Program-made: the position numbers and the translations under genes
Shown here: positions 37,669-47,829 of the stretch, in pieces
Layout: the number at the start of each line of letters is the position of its first letter
Numbering within the stretch: the stretch's first letter is position 1
Assembly: GCA_001801025.1 (NCBI GenBank)
Contig: MGWO01000007.1
Location: 1,116,001-1,180,000, forward strand
Reading direction: 5' to 3'
Length of the DNA stretch: 64,000 nt
Source of the DNA: Gallionellales bacterium GWA2_54_124
GTDB lineage: Bacteria; Pseudomonadota; Gammaproteobacteria; Burkholderiales; Gallionellaceae
Notes under the pieces: generated by a model
Seen by the model: the letters and a program-made list of their open reading frames with translations, nothing else
Databases searched by the model: none
Told to the model about the DNA's origin: nothing

Positions 37669-38244
37669 TTGAAGCGAATATTGATAATTGATGATGTGCA
37701 GGATCGTGCCGCATGGCTTAAAGCCAGTCTGGAGCTGGCTGAATATGATGTGGTCGGTGTACTGGACTGGGAGCAGGTCGACGAGAGGACGATACAGGCG
37801 GCGTTTGCCGACGTGATTATCGTCGATGCCAATGCGCCGGGGCGCGACACACTTGAACAAATCAGCCTGATGTCCACCACGCTGGAAAAACCGGTGGTTG
37901 TGCTGGGCGGCCAAACAGATCAGCCCAGTATTCAGGCCGCGATGCGCGCTGGCGTCAGTGCGTATGTGTCTCATGCGATACAGGGTGAAGATTTGAGCGG
38001 GATTATTCAGGTGGCGGCGGCCCGTTTTGCTGAGCACAAACGTCTGCGCGATGAATTGAAGGAGGCCAGAAGTCAGTTGGTTGAGCGGAAATTGGTGGAT
38101 AAGGCCAAGGGGATTTTGATGGCGGATAACGCGTATAGCGAAGTGGAGGCCTACAAAAAAATGCGCAATTTGGCAATGAACAAGGGAAAACGCCTCGCCG
38201 AAGTTGCCGAGGCGATTATTCTGGCCAAGGAACTAAATTCCTAG
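37669..38244 (+). CDS. nasT: ANTAR-domain response regulator/antiterminator
   Basis: REC-like N-terminus (ILIIDDVQDRAAWLKASLE), C-terminal ANTAR (LVERKLVDKAKGILMADNAYSEVEAYKKMRNLAMNKGKRLAEVAEAII); TTG start. Confidence 0.88.
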   Translation: MKRILIIDDVQDRAAWLKASLELAEYDVVGVLDWEQVDERTIQAAFADVIIVDANAPGRDTLEQISLMSTTLEKPVVVLGGQTDQPSIQAAMRAGVSAYVSHAIQGEDLSGIIQVAAARFAEHKRLRDELKEARSQLVERKLVDKAKGILMADNAYSEVEAYKKMRNLAMNKGKRLAEVAEAIILAKELNS

Positions 38245-38410
38245 TGTGCATGGCTTCGTGATGCATGCCTCGTATAAAAGCAAAACACGCATGATTGTGA
38301 TGCGGCCATTGCACAGAATGACTCTTATTGGTGCATCGACTTAAAATAACCTCACCGCTTATTAATACATAACTACTTGAATAAAAACAACTAATAATTT
38401 ATTTTAAATC

Positions 38411-38426
38411 TGGCACGAGTATTGCT
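38411..38426 (+). promoter_or_regulatory. Candidate sigma-54 promoter upstream of the nrtA leader
   Basis: TGGCACG-AGTA-TTGCT: exact match to the -24/-12 consensus with GG-N10-GC spacing. Confidence 0.8.
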
Positions 38427-38443
38427 TAATATTAAGCATCAAC

Positions 38444-38489
38444 AAACCAACGGCGGTTTGGCGAATTGCACTACCGGACAAAGGCGTCC
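38444..38489 (+). promoter_or_regulatory. Dual-hexaloop ANTAR RNA target (P1, P2) in the nrtA leader
   Basis: P1: AAACC-[AACGGC]-GGTTT (38444-38459). P2: GGAC-[AAAGGC]-GTCC (38476-38489). Both loops are six nt with A at position 1 and G at position 4. Confidence 0.8.
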
Positions 38490-38526
38490 CACTGCGTTTA
38501 TACGCGGTCGGACGCCTTTTGCTTTT
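38480..38526 (+). terminator. Intrinsic terminator in the nrtA leader, mutually exclusive with ANTAR hairpin P2
   Basis: AAAGGCGTCC (38480-38489) pairs perfectly with GGACGCCTTT (38510-38519), plus a 7-bp upper stem, then TTTTGCTTTTT. Its 5' arm is the loop and 3' strand of P2. Confidence 0.88.
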
Positions 38527-38550
38527 TACGAAATGATAAGGAGAGTTGAA

Positions 38551-39846
38551 ATGGAAGATTCAAAACTGATCAGCACCGACAAATTTGTGGCACCTAGCGT
38601 GCCGGAACAAAACAACCGGAGGGACTTTATGAAGCAGGCGGGCGCGGTTTTAGGCATGGCCGGAATTATGTCGATGGTGCCGATGGGTACGCGGGCAGCG
38701 GCCTGGGCGGCGGGGTCGGATGCACCTGAGCTGAAAGAAGTCAAGGTGGGCTTTATTCCTCTGACCGATTGCGCTTCGCTAGTGATTGCGTCGGTGATGA
38801 AGTTCGACGAGAAATACGGCATCAAGATCGTGTTGTCTAAGGAAGCTTCTTGGGCAGGGGTGCGCGACAAACTGACTAACGGCGAACTGCATGCGGCTCA
38901 CGTTTTGTACGGCCTAGTCTATGGTGTGCAATTGGGAATAGGCGGTCAGAAGAGAGATATGTCGGTGCTGATGACCCTGAACAACAATGGTCAGGCGATC
39001 ACGCTTTCAAACCAACTCAGGGAGAAAGGTGCGACGACCGGCGAATCGCTTAAAAAACTTGTCGATGCGGACAAGCGCGACTACACCTTTGCACAGACCT
39101 TCCCGACCGGCACGCATGCTATGTGGTTGAACTACTGGCTGGCAAGTTACGGGATAAATCCGCTTGCTGATGTCAAGAATATTACCGTACCGCCACCGCA
39201 GATGGTCGCGAATATGCGTATCGGCAATATGGATGGATATTGCGTTGGAGAGCCATGGGGTAATCGTGCTATCGCAGACAAGATTGGTTTCACCGCTGTG
39301 ACTACGCAGGACATGTGGAAGGACCATCCGGAAAAAGTACTGGGTTGCACGGCTGAATTTAGCCAGAAATATCCGAACACCGCTCGTGCGCTGATTATGG
39401 CCGTACTGGAAGCGTCGAAATATATCGACATCATGGCTAATCGCCGCAAGGTGTCGGAGATTATCGCTGACAAGTCCTATGTGAACTGTCCAGTTGAGGT
39501 GATTGATCAGCGCATGGAAGGTAAATACGAAGATGGTTTAGGTAAGAAATGGAATGACCCGAATTGCATGAAGTTCTATAACGACGGCGCGGTGAATTTC
39601 CCGTATCTGTCAGACGGCATGTGGTTCATGACACAGCAAAGACGCTGGGGTTTACTGAAAGACGATCCGGATTATCTGGCGGTCGCTAAGAAGATCAATC
39701 AGATCGACCTGTACAAACAGGCCGCATCGCAGGTGAAAGTTCCGGTGCCAAAGGATGTGATGCGCAGCTCCAAGCTGTTTGACGGCACGGTGTGGGATGG
39801 GCGTGATCCGAAGAAATATGCCGCCTCATTCAAGATCAAGGCGTAA
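38551..39846 (+). CDS. nrtA: Nitrate (or cyanate)-type ABC transporter substrate-binding protein with Tat signal
   Basis: RRDFMKQAGAVLGMAG Tat motif; TFPTGTHAMWLNYWLASYGI...MDGYCVGEPWGNRAI. Supplied start 38422 lies in the leader; true ATG is 38551 after GGAG. Confidence 0.88.
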   Translation: MEDSKLISTDKFVAPSVPEQNNRRDFMKQAGAVLGMAGIMSMVPMGTRAAAWAAGSDAPELKEVKVGFIPLTDCASLVIASVMKFDEKYGIKIVLSKEASWAGVRDKLTNGELHAAHVLYGLVYGVQLGIGGQKRDMSVLMTLNNNGQAITLSNQLREKGATTGESLKKLVDADKRDYTFAQTFPTGTHAMWLNYWLASYGINPLADVKNITVPPPQMVANMRIGNMDGYCVGEPWGNRAIADKIGFTAVTTQDMWKDHPEKVLGCTAEFSQKYPNTARALIMAVLEASKYIDIMANRRKVSEIIADKSYVNCPVEVIDQRMEGKYEDGLGKKWNDPNCMKFYNDGAVNFPYLSDGMWFMTQQRRWGLLKDDPDYLAVAKKINQIDLYKQAASQVKVPVPKDVMRSSKLFDGTVWDGRDPKKYAASFKIKA

Positions 39847-39879: not shown

Positions 39880-40335
39880 ATGGAAAAGTTAGACAGGCAA
39901 ACGGTACGCGACATGTTGTTGCAGGCCAAGGAAAACAAGTCACTCACCTGGCCGAAACTGGCCGGAGAAATTGAGCGCAGCCCGGTATACACAGCCATGT
40001 TGGTTTACGGATACGGGCAAGCAACAGAGCATGAGGCGGATGCATTGCTGATGACGTTGGATCTGCCACTGGGACTCAAGCCTATCTTGACGAAAATCCC
40101 TCATCGGCAACCGGCGCAACCTTGGCCACCTACCGACCCGTTTATTTATCGATTTTACGAGGCAATCATGTTGTATGGGCCGGTATACAAGGATGTGGCG
40201 AATGAAATGTTCGGTGACGGCATTATGAGTGCAATCGATATGTCGGTGGATATTCAGAAGATTGAAGAGCCTGCAGGTGTGCCACGCATGGTAGTCACAC
40301 TTAATGGCAAATGGTTGCAGTACAAGAAGTTTTAA
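39880..40335 (+). CDS. cynS: Cyanate hydratase (cyanase)
   Basis: PTDPFIYRFYEAIMLYGPVYKDVANEMFGDGIMSAIDMSVDIQKIEEPAG...TLNGKWL retains the cyanase R/E/S catalytic signature. Confidence 0.9.
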   Translation: MEKLDRQTVRDMLLQAKENKSLTWPKLAGEIERSPVYTAMLVYGYGQATEHEADALLMTLDLPLGLKPILTKIPHRQPAQPWPPTDPFIYRFYEAIMLYGPVYKDVANEMFGDGIMSAIDMSVDIQKIEEPAGVPRMVVTLNGKWLQYKKF

Positions 40336-40368: not shown

Positions 40369-41139
40369 ATGAATATCAGACGTTATTTTGGTGAAAATTT
40401 ATTTCCTCCGATCATCGGCATCGGACTGTTCATCGTTGTCTGGATGATATTGGCTCAAAGTAGCGAAGCGCTGCCTGGCCCGATTAAGACATGGGATTCG
40501 GCTGTCGTCTTGTTCAGTGATCCGTTTTACAACCACGGACCAAATGATCAGGGTATCGGCTGGAATATTCTCAATTCATTGGGGCGGGTCGGTGTTGGTT
40601 TTGGACTGGCTGCGTTGATTGGAATTCCCCTTGGTTTTATCGTTGGCCGGGTGGAATTCATCGACAAGATGACCTCGCCCATCATCAGCATGTTACGGCC
40701 GGTATCGCCACTGGCGTGGTTGCCGATTGGACTCTTGGTTTTCAAAGCGGCGAATCCGGCGGCAATTTGGGTAATTTTTATTTCCAGTATTTGGCCGATG
40801 ATTATCAACACCGCGATGGGTGTGCGTCAGTTGCCTCAAGATTATCTCAACGTGGCACGGGTGTTGAATCTATCTGAATGGAAGATTTTTACCAAGATTT
40901 TGTTTCCGGCCACACTACCCTACATGTTAACGGGTATCCGTTTGGCAATCGGCACGGCATGGCTAGTAATCGTCGCGGCAGAAATGCTGACCGGTGGTGT
41001 CGGTATCGGTTTCTGGGTGTGGGATGAGTGGAATAACTTGAATGTCGAACATATCATCATCGCAATTTTTGTGGTGGGTATCGTCGGGCTGCTGCTGGAA
41101 ATGCTGCTAGTCAGGCTGGCAAAACGATTCAGCTACTAA
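40369..41139 (+). CDS. nrtB: ABC transporter permease, nitrate/cyanate type
   Basis: Multi-TM BPD permease; RPVSPLAWLPIGLLVFKAANPAAIWVIFISSIWPMIINTAMGV. Confidence 0.88.
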   Translation: MNIRRYFGENLFPPIIGIGLFIVVWMILAQSSEALPGPIKTWDSAVVLFSDPFYNHGPNDQGIGWNILNSLGRVGVGFGLAALIGIPLGFIVGRVEFIDKMTSPIISMLRPVSPLAWLPIGLLVFKAANPAAIWVIFISSIWPMIINTAMGVRQLPQDYLNVARVLNLSEWKIFTKILFPATLPYMLTGIRLAIGTAWLVIVAAEMLTGGVGIGFWVWDEWNNLNVEHIIIAIFVVGIVGLLLEMLLVRLAKRFSY

Positions 41140-41148
41140 GGAATCAAC

Positions 41149-41940
41149 ATGAAAAAATATGTACAAGTTGAGAACGTGCAGATGTCTTTTGAGACCCGTA
41201 ATGGTGCGTTCGTTGCACTCAAAGATGTCAATCTGAATATCGCGCGAGGGGAATTCGTTACCTTGATTGGGCACTCTGGTTGCGGAAAATCTACGCTGCT
41301 GAATCTTATTGCTGGTTTGCTGATGCCAACAGACGGAGTGCTGTTGTGTGCTGATCGTGAGATTGCCGGTCCCGGCCCTGATCGTGGGGTTGTTTTTCAA
41401 AATCATTCACTGTTGCCTTGGTTGACGTGTTTTGAAAACGTCTATCTCGCGGTTGAGCGTGTGTTTGGTGAGACTGAAGGAAGAGCTGAATTAAATCGCC
41501 GGACCCACGAGGCATTAGGCTTGGTTCATCTGACGCACGCTGAGCAAAAATTACCAAATGAGATTTCAGGTGGAATGAAACAGCGAGTTGGAATTGCTCG
41601 TGCTTTGGCAATGCAACCCAAGGTGTTGCTGATGGATGAACCATTTGGAGCTCTGGATGCGCTGACTCGTGCACATTTACAGGATGAGCTAATGAAAATC
41701 GTTGAAAAGACAAACAGTACCGTGATTATGGTGACACATGACGTGGACGAGGCTGTTTTGTTGTCGGATCGTATTGTCATGATGACAAATGGCCCCGCAG
41801 CAATGATTGGTGAAATATTGGAAGTTGATTTACCTCGTCCTCGTAATAGGTTGGCTTTGGCGAGTGATGCGGGATATCACAGAATACGGGGGGCTGTACT
41901 GGAATTTCTGTACCAAAAACATGTGAAGGAAGCTGCTTAG
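41149..41940 (+). CDS. nrtC: ABC transporter ATP-binding protein, nitrate/cyanate type
   Basis: Walker A GHSGCGKST, signature SGGMKQRVGIARAL, Walker B VLLMDEPFGALD. Confidence 0.88.
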   Translation: MKKYVQVENVQMSFETRNGAFVALKDVNLNIARGEFVTLIGHSGCGKSTLLNLIAGLLMPTDGVLLCADREIAGPGPDRGVVFQNHSLLPWLTCFENVYLAVERVFGETEGRAELNRRTHEALGLVHLTHAEQKLPNEISGGMKQRVGIARALAMQPKVLLMDEPFGALDALTRAHLQDELMKIVEKTNSTVIMVTHDVDEAVLLSDRIVMMTNGPAAMIGEILEVDLPRPRNRLALASDAGYHRIRGAVLEFLYQKHVKEAA

Positions 41941-41944
41941 TCGG

Positions 41945-42253
41945 ATGAAAAACATATTTGATCAACTTTTCACCGCATCGCTTACACGTAACCATGAAAT
42001 TTCAATCATATATTTAGGTAGAAGCAGTGATTTTTTGATGATGACTTCGGAACGTATGGTTATTCCAGACAAAAATTTCACACTGAAACAGGTGCTGACC
42101 CGGTTACGAAAACGTGGCGGAAGATGGGGCTGTGAACTTGATGATAGTCATGTGATTTGCACCGTCGATGGAGTCTCTGTGGCGTTATCTGACAACATTC
42201 TTGTGGGTAGTAAGCTAAAAATAGGTTCGCGTAAATCTGTCTTTGAGCCGTGA
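41945..42253 (+). CDS. MoaD/ThiS-like small protein lacking a C-terminal diglycine
   Basis: FTLKQVLTRLRKRGGRWGCELDDSHVICTVDGVSVALSDNILVGSKLKIG resembles the MoaD beta-grasp pattern but ends RKSVFEP. Confidence 0.55.
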   Translation: MKNIFDQLFTASLTRNHEISIIYLGRSSDFLMMTSERMVIPDKNFTLKQVLTRLRKRGGRWGCELDDSHVICTVDGVSVALSDNILVGSKLKIGSRKSVFEP

Positions 42254-42413
42254 AATTGAAAACGACGGATGGTCTATGTGAAGCCGCATAGTAATGCCAG
42301 AAATTACGGCTGTAATGGATAGTAGATGTGATTTGAGAGCTATTTTAACAATCTATTAAGTAGCCCAACCTGCTCTATTCCGGCAGTGCTACATTAATTA
42401 TGAGAGGTTGGAT

Positions 42414-44873
42414 ATGGAAGAAAATAAAAAACGATTAGTGGTGATCGGCAATGGTATGGCCGGAATCCGTACGATAGAAGAATTGCTTAAGATAGCGCCA
42501 GATGACTATGAGATTACGATATTCGGCGCGGAGCCACAGCCCAATTACAATCGCATCCTACTCTCACCGGTACTCTCCGGTGAAATGAAGTTTCAGGATA
42601 CGGTGTTGAATGATTGGGGTTGGTATCAAGAGCACAATATCACATTGCATATGGGTAAATTGGTTACAAAAATTGACCGCCAGTGTTGCGTTGTCGAAAC
42701 TGAAGATGGGCTGGTTGTGCCTTACGACCGGCTGTTGATCGCGACCGGATCGAATCCGATTATGCTGCCGATACCTGGGATGAGTCTACCGGGTGTGCTG
42801 GCCTATCGCAGTATCGACGACGTGGAAAAAATGCTGGTTGCTGCCAGAAACAGTAAGCGTGCTGTGGTGATCGGTGGTGGTTTGCTGGGGCTAGAGGCCG
42901 CTAATGGATTAGCGCTACAGGGCATGGAAGTTTCAGTAGTGCATCTGTGTGACTGGCCTATGGAACGCCAGCTCGACAAGGTAGGGGGCGGATTGCTCAA
43001 AGAGGCGCTGGAAAAGCGTGGCCTTAAATTTTATCTATCGCGTCAAAGTGAGGCAGTGCTGGGTGAAGATAAGGTCACCGGTTTGCGATTCAAAGATGGA
43101 GATCAAATCGAAGCTGATCTGTTAATCATGGCAGCAGGCATACGGCCTAATATTGCGCTTGCCAAAATGGCTGGGATTAATTGTGAACGCGGTATTGTGG
43201 TCAGCGACAATATGCAGACTGATGATCCTAATATATATTCTGTAGGGGAATGTGTGCAGCATCGAGGTCAGACTTATGGCTTGGTAGCGCCACTTTTTGA
43301 GCAGGCAAAGGTCGCTGCGAATCACTTGGCTGGTCTTGATGAGATGTGCTACCAAGGCTCTGCCGTTTCTACAAAATTAAAAGTAACCGGTATCGACCTG
43401 TTTTCGGCAGGCGACTTTAATCCTGCTGATGGTGACGAAGAATTACTGCTTCAAGACTCCAGTCGTGGCGTGTATAAAAAACTAGTGGTGCGCAGCAATA
43501 AGCTACGTGGAGCCGTAATGTACGGAGATACTGTAGATGGTTCATGGTATTTTCAGCTAATGCGCGATGGCATAGACATTTCTGAAATGCGTGAGCATAT
43601 TTTGTTTGGTCAGGCTCACATTGGCGAGGCAGGTCACGGCGGTGTATCCAGTGTAGCCAATATGGCCGACAGCGCAGAGGTCTGTGGTTGTAACGGTGTC
43701 TGCAAGGGGACGATCGTCAATGCGATTGTCGATAAGAAATTGTTTACGATCGAAGAGGTGCGCGCCCACACTAAGGCTTCCGCCTCATGCGGTTCGTGCA
43801 CGGGCTTGGTGGAGTCAATTCTGGCTAACACTTTGGGCGGCGACTATTCCGCAAAATCAAGTAAAAAGCCGATTTGTGCCTGTACCGAATCCTCGCATCA
43901 GGATGTCCCCAAGGCAATCCGTGAACTGCGCGTTAAAACCATGCCGGAATTGATGCGCGCGCTGGAATGGAAGACAGTGGACGGCTGCCACGTCTGCCGC
44001 CCAGCACTAAATTATTATTTGCTGACCGCTTGGCCTGGTGAATATCAGGATGATTCCCATTCGCGTTTTATCAACGAACGGGTTCATGCCAATATCCAGA
44101 AGGACGGCACCTATTCGGTGGTGCCGCGTATCTGGGGCGGCGTCACGACCCCGTCCGAGTTGCGTTCCATTGCTGACATCGCCGATAAATATCAAGTGCC
44201 GAGTGTGAAGATTACTGGCGGTCAGCGCATCGACCTTTTGGGGGTGACCCGCGAAAACCTGCCGAAGATGTGGGGTGATTTGGTTGCGGCGGGATTTGTC
44301 TCAGGGCACGCCTACGGTAAATCGCTGCGCACCGTGAAAACCTGTGTGGGCTCGGAATGGTGTCGTTTCGGTACGCAGGACTCCACGGGGCTTGGCATCA
44401 AGGTCGAAAAAATGACCTGGGGTTCATGGACACCGCACAAGTTTAAAATTGCCGTATCTGGTTGCCCGCGCAATTGCGCCGAGGCGACCATCAAGGATTT
44501 TGGCGTGGTGTGTGTGGATTCAGGCTATGAAATCCACATCGGCGGCAATGGCGGCATCAAAGTGCGCGTCACCGATTTCCTGTGTAAGGTCGCAACGGAA
44601 GCTGAGGTGATGGAATACTGCGGCGCGTTCATGCAACTGTATCGCGAAGAGGCGCATTACTTGGATCGTACCGCACCCTGGATAGAACGCGTCGGACTAG
44701 CTTACGTGAAGCAGCGTGTTGTGGACGATGCAGCAGGGCGTGCCGAATTGCATGCGCGCTTTCTTGAATCTCAACGCTATTCACAGGATGATCCCTGGAA
44801 AGCACGCGCGGAGGGGATGGATGCATATGAGTACACACCATTGGCCAACATTGAACAAGGAGCAATGCAATGA
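42414..44873 (+). CDS. nirB: Nitrite reductase (NADH) large subunit
   Basis: FAD/NAD N-terminus (RLVVIGNGMAGIRTIEELL), BFD-like CxC/CxxC region, siroheme/4Fe4S motif TCVGSEWCRFG...CPRNCAEA. Confidence 0.92.
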   Translation: MEENKKRLVVIGNGMAGIRTIEELLKIAPDDYEITIFGAEPQPNYNRILLSPVLSGEMKFQDTVLNDWGWYQEHNITLHMGKLVTKIDRQCCVVETEDGLVVPYDRLLIATGSNPIMLPIPGMSLPGVLAYRSIDDVEKMLVAARNSKRAVVIGGGLLGLEAANGLALQGMEVSVVHLCDWPMERQLDKVGGGLLKEALEKRGLKFYLSRQSEAVLGEDKVTGLRFKDGDQIEADLLIMAAGIRPNIALAKMAGINCERGIVVSDNMQTDDPNIYSVGECVQHRGQTYGLVAPLFEQAKVAANHLAGLDEMCYQGSAVSTKLKVTGIDLFSAGDFNPADGDEELLLQDSSRGVYKKLVVRSNKLRGAVMYGDTVDGSWYFQLMRDGIDISEMREHILFGQAHIGEAGHGGVSSVANMADSAEVCGCNGVCKGTIVNAIVDKKLFTIEEVRAHTKASASCGSCTGLVESILANTLGGDYSAKSSKKPICACTESSHQDVPKAIRELRVKTMPELMRALEWKTVDGCHVCRPALNYYLLTAWPGEYQDDSHSRFINERVHANIQKDGTYSVVPRIWGGVTTPSELRSIADIADKYQVPSVKITGGQRIDLLGVTRENLPKMWGDLVAAGFVSGHAYGKSLRTVKTCVGSEWCRFGTQDSTGLGIKVEKMTWGSWTPHKFKIAVSGCPRNCAEATIKDFGVVCVDSGYEIHIGGNGGIKVRVTDFLCKVATEAEVMEYCGAFMQLYREEAHYLDRTAPWIERVGLAYVKQRVVDDAAGRAELHARFLESQRYSQDDPWKARAEGMDAYEYTPLANIEQGAMQ

Positions 44874-45196
44874 ACTGGATACAGGTAGGTAATTTGGATG
44901 ATATTCCGCGTCAAGGTTCACGGACCATCAATACGTCAACAGGGGAGATTGCGCTATTTCGCAGTGTGGATGATCAGGTATTCGCACTGAACAACCGTTG
45001 TCCACATAAGAACGGGCCACTTTCGCAGGGTATCGTGCATGGCACACGCGTTACCTGTCCGCTGCACAGCTGGGTAATTGATCTGGAATCTGGTGAAGCT
45101 ATTGCACCTGATTCTGGCTGCGCGCACCGTTATGAAGTGCGAGTGGCTCACGGTGTGGTGCTTATTAATTTAGAGGCTGGGGTATGCAAAATATAA
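44870..45196 (+). CDS. nirD: Nitrite reductase (NADH) small subunit, Rieske type
   Basis: CPHKNGPLSQGIVHGTRVTCPLHSWVIDLESGEA. Confidence 0.92.
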   Translation: MNWIQVGNLDDIPRQGSRTINTSTGEIALFRSVDDQVFALNNRCPHKNGPLSQGIVHGTRVTCPLHSWVIDLESGEAIAPDSGCAHRYEVRVAHGVVLINLEAGVCKI

Positions 45197-47829
45197 ATAC
45201 GTCTGTGTTCAGCACGTGTCCATATTGCGGTGTCGGTTGCGGTGTTGCCGTTAGTGCGGGGATGAAAGCTACTACCTTGGCTGGGGATAAATTCCATCCA
45301 GCGAATTTCGGGCGCTTGTGTTCCAAGGGTACGGCGTTGGCCGAGACGCTCGGTGAGGAGGGGCGATTGCGCCATCCCGTTGTGAATGGGCAACGGGCGT
45401 CTTGGGATGACGCGCTGGGCTGTGTTGCGGAGGGATTCGGGCGGATCATCGCCGAGCATGGGCCGGATGCGGTAGCCTTTTACGTCTCCGGGCAGTTGCT
45501 GACAGAGGACTATTACGTTGCCAACAAGCTGATGAAGGGCTTTATTGGCAGCGCGAATATCGATACTAATTCGAGGCTGTGCATGTCTACAGCAGTGGCG
45601 GCCCACAAACGCGCCTTCGGTGCAGATGCGGTACCGGTCTGTTACGAAGATATTGAACTGGCCGATTTGGTGGTGATTGTTGGTTCCAACTATGCATGGG
45701 CACATCCGGTGCTCTACCAGCGCCTTGTCGCAGCAAAAAAAGCGCGTCGGGAAATGCGTGTGGTGGTGATCGATCCGCGTCGTACTGCGACTTGCGACAT
45801 TGCCGATTTGCATCTGGGCATCGAACCTGGCACTGATGCCTATATGTTTAATGGGCTGCTGCATCATCTGCGCCGCGAAGATGCGCTTGATCTGAGCTTT
45901 ATTGAGGAGCATGTGGACGGGTTTTCCGCCGCCTTCGATGCCGCACGGGATTCCATTCCGAAAATAGCGCAATTTTGCGGCGTTGACGAGTCAAAAATTG
46001 CCGAGTTTTTTAATCTGTTCGCCAAAACCTGCCGTACCGTGACGATTTTTTCGCAAGGTATCAATCAATCCTCCAGCGGTGTGGACAAGGCAAATGCAAT
46101 CATCAATGTACACCTAGCTACAGGGCGGATCGGGAAACCCGGCATGGGGCCGTTTTCGGTGACAGGCCAGCCGAATGCGATGGGCGGGCGCGAAGTGGGC
46201 GGGCTGGCGAATCAACTAGCGGCACATCTGGACTTCGCTGATGTGGCAAGTATCGACTTGGTTGCACGTTTCTGGAATGCGCCTGACATCGCGCAAAAAC
46301 CGGGTCTCAAGGCGATAGAGATGTTTGATGCAATTGCAGATGGAAAAATCAAAGCGGTGTGGATCATGGGTACCAATCCTGTGGTCAGTTTGCCCGATGC
46401 GGATAAGGTGCGTGCAGCTCTGCTGGGTTGCGACTTCGTAGTGATATCCGATTGCGTCGAACACACCGACACCACGGCCTGTGGCGATATCCTGCTGCCG
46501 GCCCGTGGCTGGGGTGAAAAGGACGGCACGGTAACCAATTCAGAGCGGTGTATCTCGCGTCAGCGGGCATTTCAGTCATCCGTCGGTGAAGCAATGCCGG
46601 ACTGGTGGATCGTCACTCAGGTTGCGCAGCGCATGGGCCATAAAAAGGCATTTTCCTACACCCATCCTGCGCAGATTTTTCGTGAACATGCGCGCCTGTC
46701 GGGTTTTGAAAATGAGGGGGGGCGTGCGTTCGATATCAGCGCTTGGTCAGAGCTGGGAGAAGAAGAGTACGATGCGCTGAGGCCGAAGCAATGGCCGGTT
46801 AATCGCGCGGCACCCGATGGTACTTTTCGGCTGTTTGGTGACGGGAAATTTTATACACCAAACGGTCGTGCGCGCATGATCGCGGTTACTCCGCGATTAC
46901 CAGCTATCGCTACAAATGATGAATTTCCGCTGGTGCTCAATACCGGCCGGATACGCGACCAGTGGCACACTATGACCCGTACCGGGAAAGTGCCGCGCCT
47001 GAATGCACATTCAGTCGAGCCATATGTGCAAATTCATGCAGACAACGCACATCAACTCGTTAATGGTGCACTCGCGCGATTGATCAGCCGGCAAGGCGAG
47101 ATGTTAGCACGGGTACAGGTCAGTGCAGACCAGCGTCCAGGTTCGGTATTTGTGCCGATGCACTGGAGTGAAACTTTTGCAATTTCGTCTAGAGTGGATG
47201 CGCTGGTAGCACCTATCACTGATCCAATTTCCGGTCAGCCGGAATCAAAACATACACCAATACGTATTGAGGCGTATCAGCCACACTGGCAGGGATTTAT
47301 TTTGAGTCGCAACCGTCTTGCATTGCCGGATGCCAGTTATTGTGCCTGTACAAAAGGTGAAGGTTACTGGCGACATGAGATCGCCGGCGAAAGTATGCCG
47401 GATAACTGGAGTAGCTGGGTAAAAACGGCGCTGGCAGCACAAGCCTCTGCTGTCTGGAGCGAGTATCAAGATACTGGAATGGGGCGATATCGCGCAGCTT
47501 GTCTAGTGGATGGTTTCTTGGAGGCAGTGTTTTTTATTGCCAAGGATCATGCGCTGCCCGAGCGCGAGTGGCTTGCCAGCCTGTTTGATAAGCCTGAAAT
47601 TAAGCATGATGAGTTGGCTGGGTTACTGGCTGCACGTCCGCCCAAAGGATCAGCCTCCGACAGCGGACGTGTCGTGTGCGCCTGTTATGGCGTGGGAGAA
47701 AAATCCATCCTCAATGCCATTAAAACCCATGGATTGAAGAGTGTGGACGCCATCGGACAATGTCTGAAAGCCGGAACCAATTGCGGATCATGTGTGCCGG
47801 AGCTAAGGCGTTTACTAGAAAAATATTAG
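45184..47829 (+). CDS. nasA: Assimilatory nitrate reductase, molybdopterin type, with C-terminal BFD-like [2Fe-2S] domain
   Basis: CPYCGVGCGVAV 4Fe4S site, molybdopterin oxidoreductase motifs, C-terminal VCACYGVGEKSIL...GTNCGSCVPELRRLL. Confidence 0.92.
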   Translation: MQNINTSVFSTCPYCGVGCGVAVSAGMKATTLAGDKFHPANFGRLCSKGTALAETLGEEGRLRHPVVNGQRASWDDALGCVAEGFGRIIAEHGPDAVAFYVSGQLLTEDYYVANKLMKGFIGSANIDTNSRLCMSTAVAAHKRAFGADAVPVCYEDIELADLVVIVGSNYAWAHPVLYQRLVAAKKARREMRVVVIDPRRTATCDIADLHLGIEPGTDAYMFNGLLHHLRREDALDLSFIEEHVDGFSAAFDAARDSIPKIAQFCGVDESKIAEFFNLFAKTCRTVTIFSQGINQSSSGVDKANAIINVHLATGRIGKPGMGPFSVTGQPNAMGGREVGGLANQLAAHLDFADVASIDLVARFWNAPDIAQKPGLKAIEMFDAIADGKIKAVWIMGTNPVVSLPDADKVRAALLGCDFVVISDCVEHTDTTACGDILLPARGWGEKDGTVTNSERCISRQRAFQSSVGEAMPDWWIVTQVAQRMGHKKAFSYTHPAQIFREHARLSGFENEGGRAFDISAWSELGEEEYDALRPKQWPVNRAAPDGTFRLFGDGKFYTPNGRARMIAVTPRLPAIATNDEFPLVLNTGRIRDQWHTMTRTGKVPRLNAHSVEPYVQIHADNAHQLVNGALARLISRQGEMLARVQVSADQRPGSVFVPMHWSETFAISSRVDALVAPITDPISGQPESKHTPIRIEAYQPHWQGFILSRNRLALPDASYCACTKGEGYWRHEIAGESMPDNWSSWVKTALAAQASAVWSEYQDTGMGRYRAACLVDGFLEAVFFIAKDHALPEREWLASLFDKPEIKHDELAGLLAARPPKGSASDSGRVVCACYGVGEKSILNAIKTHGLKSVDAIGQCLKAGTNCGSCVPELRRLLEKY

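Follow-up and report, generated by a model that had tools for sequence, protein, structure and literature searches.

What controls the nitrate-assimilation operon in the window (the whole 64-kb stretch of DNA that we analyzed), and which protein of this Gallionellaceae bacterium could tell the operon that nitrate is present? The source genome is 2.9 Mb long and 99.99% complete, and the gene order at the locus is cobA, ybiB, nasT, the candidate switch, nrtA, cynS, nrtB, nrtC, orf102, nirB, nirD and nasA, with nasT, the operon genes and the leader features described below all on the + strand. Sequence features and comparison with relatives make it very probable that the segment between nasT and nrtA is a two-input switch, in which a sigma-54 promoter and NasT-dependent antitermination jointly govern a nitrate/nitrite/cyanate assimilation operon.

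The product of nasT (37669–38244) has a degenerate receiver domain and an ANTAR RNA-binding domain (Pfam PF03861, 63 bits, and PF00072, 41 bits), the REC-plus-ANTAR architecture of NasS–NasT systems, and its closest named relatives are from Gallionellaceae (Gallionella, Sideroxydans). The operon begins with nrtA (38551–39846), which encodes the nitrate-binding protein of an ABC transporter (PF13379, 342 bits) with a Tat signal (RRDFMK), and continues with the cyanase gene cynS (39880–40335; TIGR00673, 170 bits against a cut-off of 113), the nitrate permease gene nrtB (40369–41139; TIGR01183, 258 bits) and the ATPase gene nrtC/D (41149–41940; TIGR01184, 336 bits). There follow orf102 (41945–42253), which encodes a small protein without any family match that is conserved in Gallionellaceae operons, nirB for the nitrite reductase large subunit (42408–44873), a nirD-like small-subunit gene assigned by position and homologues (44870–45196) and a gene for a nasA/nasC-type assimilatory nitrate reductase (45184–47829). 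The position of orf102 between nrtC and nirB is kept across Gallionellaceae. A cyanase gene between nrtA and nrtB was seen among the fetched loci only here, at L161 and partly at L051; the idea that nrtA encodes a cyanate-binding CynA was set aside, as relatives with 84–88% identity have no adjacent cynS.

Promoter, hairpins and terminator upstream of nrtA

The likely start of nrtA is the ATG at 38551, which is preceded by AAGGAGAG. The original prediction held that standard annotation would hide the leader by starting the ORF at 38422; the TTG there is merely the earliest start codon in an extended open frame, and with the likely start at 38551 a good gene caller would keep the leader intergenic.

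The predicted sigma-54 promoter, TGGCACG-AGTA-TTGCT, is present at 38411–38426 (TGGCACGAGTATTGCT), where it conforms to TGGCAC-N5-TTGCW with the GG–GC spacing and is the sole exact consensus match in the 64 kb. Allowing one mismatch gave three matches in the window versus 1.7 expected, so that the promoter call draws its strength from conservation and not from the single match: measured from the first G of the −24 GG, A1, the first loop base of the upstream leader hairpin (P1), lies 34–48 nt away in 51 of 52 relatives, with 23 of these at 37 nt. This near-fixed distance would place the beginning of P1 ~7 nt inside the predicted transcript, which is expected to start near 38437. At 38318–38334, ~93 bp before the −24 GG, is an NtrC-like site of which one half is good (TGACTCTTATTGGTGCA); it agrees with the consensus at 10 of 14 positions, which is weak for this site alone. 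A 17-bp NtrC-like palindrome with at least 10 of the 14 positions occurs upstream in 38 of 51 relatives, compared with 6% of shuffles, mostly 60–130 bp before the −24 box. RpoN is encoded in the genome, as is NtrC (687 bits versus a cut-off of 559).

Downstream of the promoter are two hairpins, each with a hexaloop that has A at position 1 and G at position 4. P1, which had been proposed with a 5-bp stem, lies at 38443–38460 with the expected loop and a stem that is in fact 6 bp long, CAAACC[AACGGC]GGTTTG. P2 is exactly as proposed, a 4-bp hairpin GGAC[AAAGGC]GTCC at 38476–38489. The intrinsic terminator (38480–38523) overlaps P2 in the manner anticipated: the loop and 3′ strand of P2 constitute its 5′ arm (38480–38489, AAAGGCGTCC), which pairs at 10 of 10 positions with the 3′ arm (38510–38519, GGACGCCTTT) ahead of a T-rich tail. 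The window contains a single instance of the P2-plus-terminator pattern, versus 0.00 expected, and the fold of the leader is 4.6 sd below that of dinucleotide shuffles. When the leader was folded stepwise from 38437, P1 and P2 had formed by 38490, and P2, the putative antiterminator and the first to fold, held until ~38512, after which the terminator displaced it; the energies of the two states were −26.7 kcal/mol for P1 plus P2 and −38.0 kcal/mol for the terminator. The persistence of P2 until ~38512 implies a short time for NasT to act, as has been proposed for EutV and eut. The leader thus combines the elements of an ANTAR antiterminator, namely dual A1/G4 hexaloops, a P2 and a terminator that are mutually exclusive, and a cognate ANTAR protein encoded in the genome.

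Conservation of the element and the narK and P11 families

The order (400 genomes) and the family (151 genomes) were searched for the Rfam narK RNA, and the matches yielded 52 distinct loci that were oriented for comparison. A terminator overlapping P2 was found in 52 of 52, versus 10% in mononucleotide shuffles. Absence of covariation in the leaders of relatives had been named in advance as grounds for refuting the switch; covariation turned out to be strong in P1 and, in P2, to be found mainly at the outer pair. Pairs 2–6 of P1 showed 13, 18, 20, 15 and 7 both-side changes among the 52 loci, with 90–100% of cells paired as against the 52–85% expected for independent columns, although many of the loci compared are close relatives and the cells are not independent events. 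In P2, the outer pair had 12 both-side changes and the inner pairs, on which the loop rule and the terminator each impose constraints, were near-invariant; the third loop base and its terminator partner changed together in seven loci. All pairs were counted in hairpin register, and a MAFFT alignment of the leaders, with its variable spacers and a mis-set row (L045), was set aside.

An independent test did not start from the RNA: we fetched 80 named loci through NasT protein similarity and found the two-loop-plus-terminator element at 46 of them, versus 1 of 80 in shuffled DNA, and the element together with a sigma-54 box at 33, versus none in shuffles. A switch at all 80 loci was rejected; by the rule used the element is absent from 34, of which some end near nasT and others are nasT–nasS units whose target possibly lies elsewhere.

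The RNA also tracks the protein. An ANTAR protein is encoded in 47 of 47 narK-positive genomes, compared with 191 of 400 overall (hypergeometric p 2.8e-17), and four same-genus genomes without the RNA (G251, G281, G339, G366) are missing the ANTAR protein too. In the genome studied here NasT is the single ANTAR protein by profile match, and its gene, as the original prediction had it, lies just before the switch. NasT residues K141, R166 and M170, kept in eight of eight aligned sequences, correspond in an alignment by eye to K143, R168 and M172 of EutV, which have been reported at the RNA-binding site (PMC8934654). At L076, L081, L086, L096, L147, L150, L152 and L153 a NIT-ANTAR (NasR-like) gene, so assigned from similarity and NasR architecture, takes the place of NasT beside the same RNA; the first four of these loci point to a sensor that was swapped while the RNA was kept.

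The loci vary in other respects. Six (L010, L012, L016, L018, L088, L089) have three A1/G4 hexaloop hairpins, and L200 looks alike; at L010, L012 and L018 the first of these hairpins has a 3′ arm on which the Rfam narK match sets its 'promoter'. The spacing from A1 to A1 of the two hairpins ranges from 20 to 50 nt in relatives. Three nitrate clusters (L092, L096, L098) carry two switches a few kb apart, before separate gene groups. Large proteins that by eye resemble PP2C-type phosphatase–protein kinase fusions are encoded on the − strand at L060 (2008–4284) and L098 (10187–11875), where they sit in nitrate clusters with narK or nasS close by.

Two Rfam models match the leader; neither these matches nor the absence of NasS had figured in the original prediction. 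The narK RNA (RF03032) matches 38412–38490 with 45.9 bits, above its gathering score of 43.2, and the match starts exactly at the −24 GG of the sigma-54 promoter; this model draws P1 alone as paired and ends before the terminator. 'Pseudomonas sRNA P11' (RF00625) matches full length at 38399–38516 (E 3.6e-7), and this model does include the terminator; its 38.9 bits fall short of the gathering score of 70, which leaves the leader outside P11 by threshold, with an architecture that is alike. Both models take in the −24/−12 region, which is promoter DNA, and their conserved 5′ ends appear to be promoter DNA and not RNA. A class-wide search with P11 returned 12 matches, of which 11 have a sigma-54 box and a P2 hairpin; these 11 precede nirB or nrtA, and upstream of most of them lies a gene for NasT or a NIT-ANTAR protein. 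The P11-type loci L145–L155 have the layout of sigma-54 promoter plus ANTAR attenuator. The comparison suggests that narK and P11 may be one promoter-plus-attenuator element, a unification that would predict their controllers as well as the presence of promoter DNA in each 'RNA'. Our literature search found no paper equating narK RNA or P11 with a NasT/ANTAR leader, which proves little; such a link may already be in print.

Studies of C. elegans attribute inherited avoidance to the P. aeruginosa RNA P11, an effect whose dependence on growth conditions is disputed (PMC12080996, PMC11942167). In that literature P11 is handled as an sRNA and named a regulator of the nitrogen assimilation operon (PMC12080996). 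Should P11 be a terminated leader, RpoN/NtrC and NasT would be expected to make its level follow nitrogen limitation and nitrate, and the dependence on growth conditions would be easier to explain.

Two proposed inputs, rival readings and the missing NasS

The mechanism we favor would run as follows. Under nitrogen shortage active NtrC would cause the sigma-54 promoter at 38411 to fire, with transcription starting near 38437, and the first ~55 nt of the RNA would form P1 and then P2. Free NasT on P2 would block the terminator and allow read-through into nrtA-cynS-nrtBC-nirBD-nasA; without NasT, the terminator, using the loop and 3′ strand of P2, would displace P2, and a short leader RNA would be released. 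NasT antitermination of a sigma-54-driven operon, the core of the original prediction, is thus supported by the covariation in P1, the terminators in 52 of 52 relatives, the promoter spacing and the sole ANTAR protein. From these features we infer binding by NasT, control by NtrC and nitrate as the second signal. Several points count against the switch: P2 has just 4 bp, the NtrC site here is weak alone, the Paracoccus-type partner NasS is missing, 34 of the 80 NasT loci gave no element, and many of the loci behind the covariation counts are close relatives.

A sigma-70 promoter could instead drive transcription, with the sigma-54 box incidental, and a sigma-70-like site does occur at 38318–38347; that site is weak and within chance numbers, whereas the sigma-54 box is exact, keeps its 34–48-nt distance from A1 of P1 in 51 of 52 relatives and in those relatives has NtrC-like sites enriched upstream, which together leave the sigma-70 reading with hardly any credibility. 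We give little more credence to the proposal that the leader chiefly yields a terminated small RNA with a role in trans. The full-length match to the P11 model and the treatment of P11 as an sRNA in C. elegans work (PMC12080996) speak for it, but a nitrate gene in sense orientation directly follows the element, which contains covarying hairpins of the type bound by ANTAR proteins. The position and covariation of the element fit control in cis, with side roles for the terminated leader still possible.

How the cis switch would be informed of nitrate is a separate matter. In Paracoccus a cytoplasmic, signal-less NasS binds NasT and releases it on nitrate (PMC3795266); such a NasS was not found in searches of our 99.99% complete genome, where the Tat-signalled NrtA is the sole close NasS/NrtA homologue. 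Two further NMT1_2 proteins were rejected as NasS: their scores are weak (77 and 65 bits), their N termini carry membrane or signal sequences, and they resemble binding proteins of other kinds. By our tally, 15 of 39 switch-bearing genomes likewise encode NasT rather than NasR and, at E ≤ 1e-20, just one homologue, which is Tat-signalled. One explanation is that NasT is ungated: constitutively active without NasS, it would leave the operon answering to NtrC and sigma-54 alone, with the attenuator either a relic or a gauge of how much NasT is present. The gap in a genome this complete agrees with that account, as does the receiver of NasT, in which, read by eye, the conserved lysine is missing and Gly occupies the usual Thr/Ser site, so that control through phosphorylation by a kinase is unlikely. 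Both loops and the terminator are nevertheless intact in NasS-less relatives, unlike a relic, and at least 15 NasS-less genomes retain NasT and the switch; we regard an ungated NasT as possible but rather doubtful.

We also advance, tentatively and with the odds against it, the idea that NrtA doubles as the sensor of NasT in NasS-less genomes, and that a signal-less NrtA becomes NasS when NarK replaces NrtBC. Among the named loci, exported homologues accompany nrtB in 34 of 37 cases, the remaining three being near contig or locus ends, and signal-less homologues occur without nrtB in 25 of 26 (exported versus signal-less, Fisher p 3e-13). A tree of 102 homologues, computed by a quick method with no bootstrap after the signal region had been excluded, shows six changes of the exported/cytoplasmic label, of which strongly supported branches require at least five; in it, signal-less proteins are nested within Gallionellaceae NrtA. 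Besides nrtA of the window, the loci noted in connection with this switching are L060, L062, L080, L092, L098, L170, L171, L173 and L174. At L098 (13535–14848) the Tat signal is recognizable but ruined (GRQELAKESGADSDAAG versus SRREFMKQTGAILGAAG in L091), and narK occupies the place of nrtBC. The simplest reading of the tree and of L098 is that NrtA could serve NasT even before its signal is lost: Tat substrates are expected to be folded already when they leave the cytoplasm, so that un-exported NrtA could form a pool that binds NasT and gives it up in the presence of nitrate. If true, a single protein would serve both sensing and transport, and its gene would be the first in the operon that it controls. 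The missing NasS and the repeated conversion between NrtA and NasS make the origin of the nitrate sensor directly testable.

Relation to known systems

The combination of a sigma-54 promoter with NasT-type antitermination has reportedly been published for Azotobacter and P. aeruginosa. Antitermination by NasT at the A. vinelandii nasA leader was reportedly described by Wang (2012; cited in PMC12316311), and sigma-54 plus antitermination of P. aeruginosa nirBD is said to have been described by Romeo (2012). Antitermination by NasT and NasR at nitrate leaders is established, and in Paracoccus both the leader hairpins and the binding of NasT to the leader are known (PMC3795266). Mechanism and family are therefore known, and the switch is a further member; what is new is mainly the proposed unification of narK with P11 and the NasS gap, rather than the switch itself.

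Like the NasT/nasA systems of Azotobacter vinelandii, Paracoccus denitrificans and Pseudomonas, the locus pairs a REC-ANTAR NasT with a nitrate-assimilation operon; unlike them, it is missing NasS, has a Tat-exported nrtA product as its first gene and carries cynS inside the operon. NasR at nasF of Klebsiella is likewise an ANTAR protein acting on an antiterminator in a nitrate-operon leader (PMC3795266), but NasR bears its own nitrate-sensing NIT domain. The embedding of P2 in the terminator and the conservation of hexaloop positions 1 and 4 recall EutV and eutP of Enterococcus (PMC8934654), and the 'very compact' design that had been remarked on is the standard one for ANTAR systems (PMC8934654). 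EutV and eutP differ in their ethanolamine signal, in the phosphorylation of EutV and in a hairpin spacing that is strict, in contrast to the range among narK relatives. The two Rfam families are alike in layout: narK RNA shares the order of promoter, P1 and P2, and P11 of Pseudomonas shares the sigma-54 box, P2 and the terminator, the difference being that P11 is described as an sRNA.
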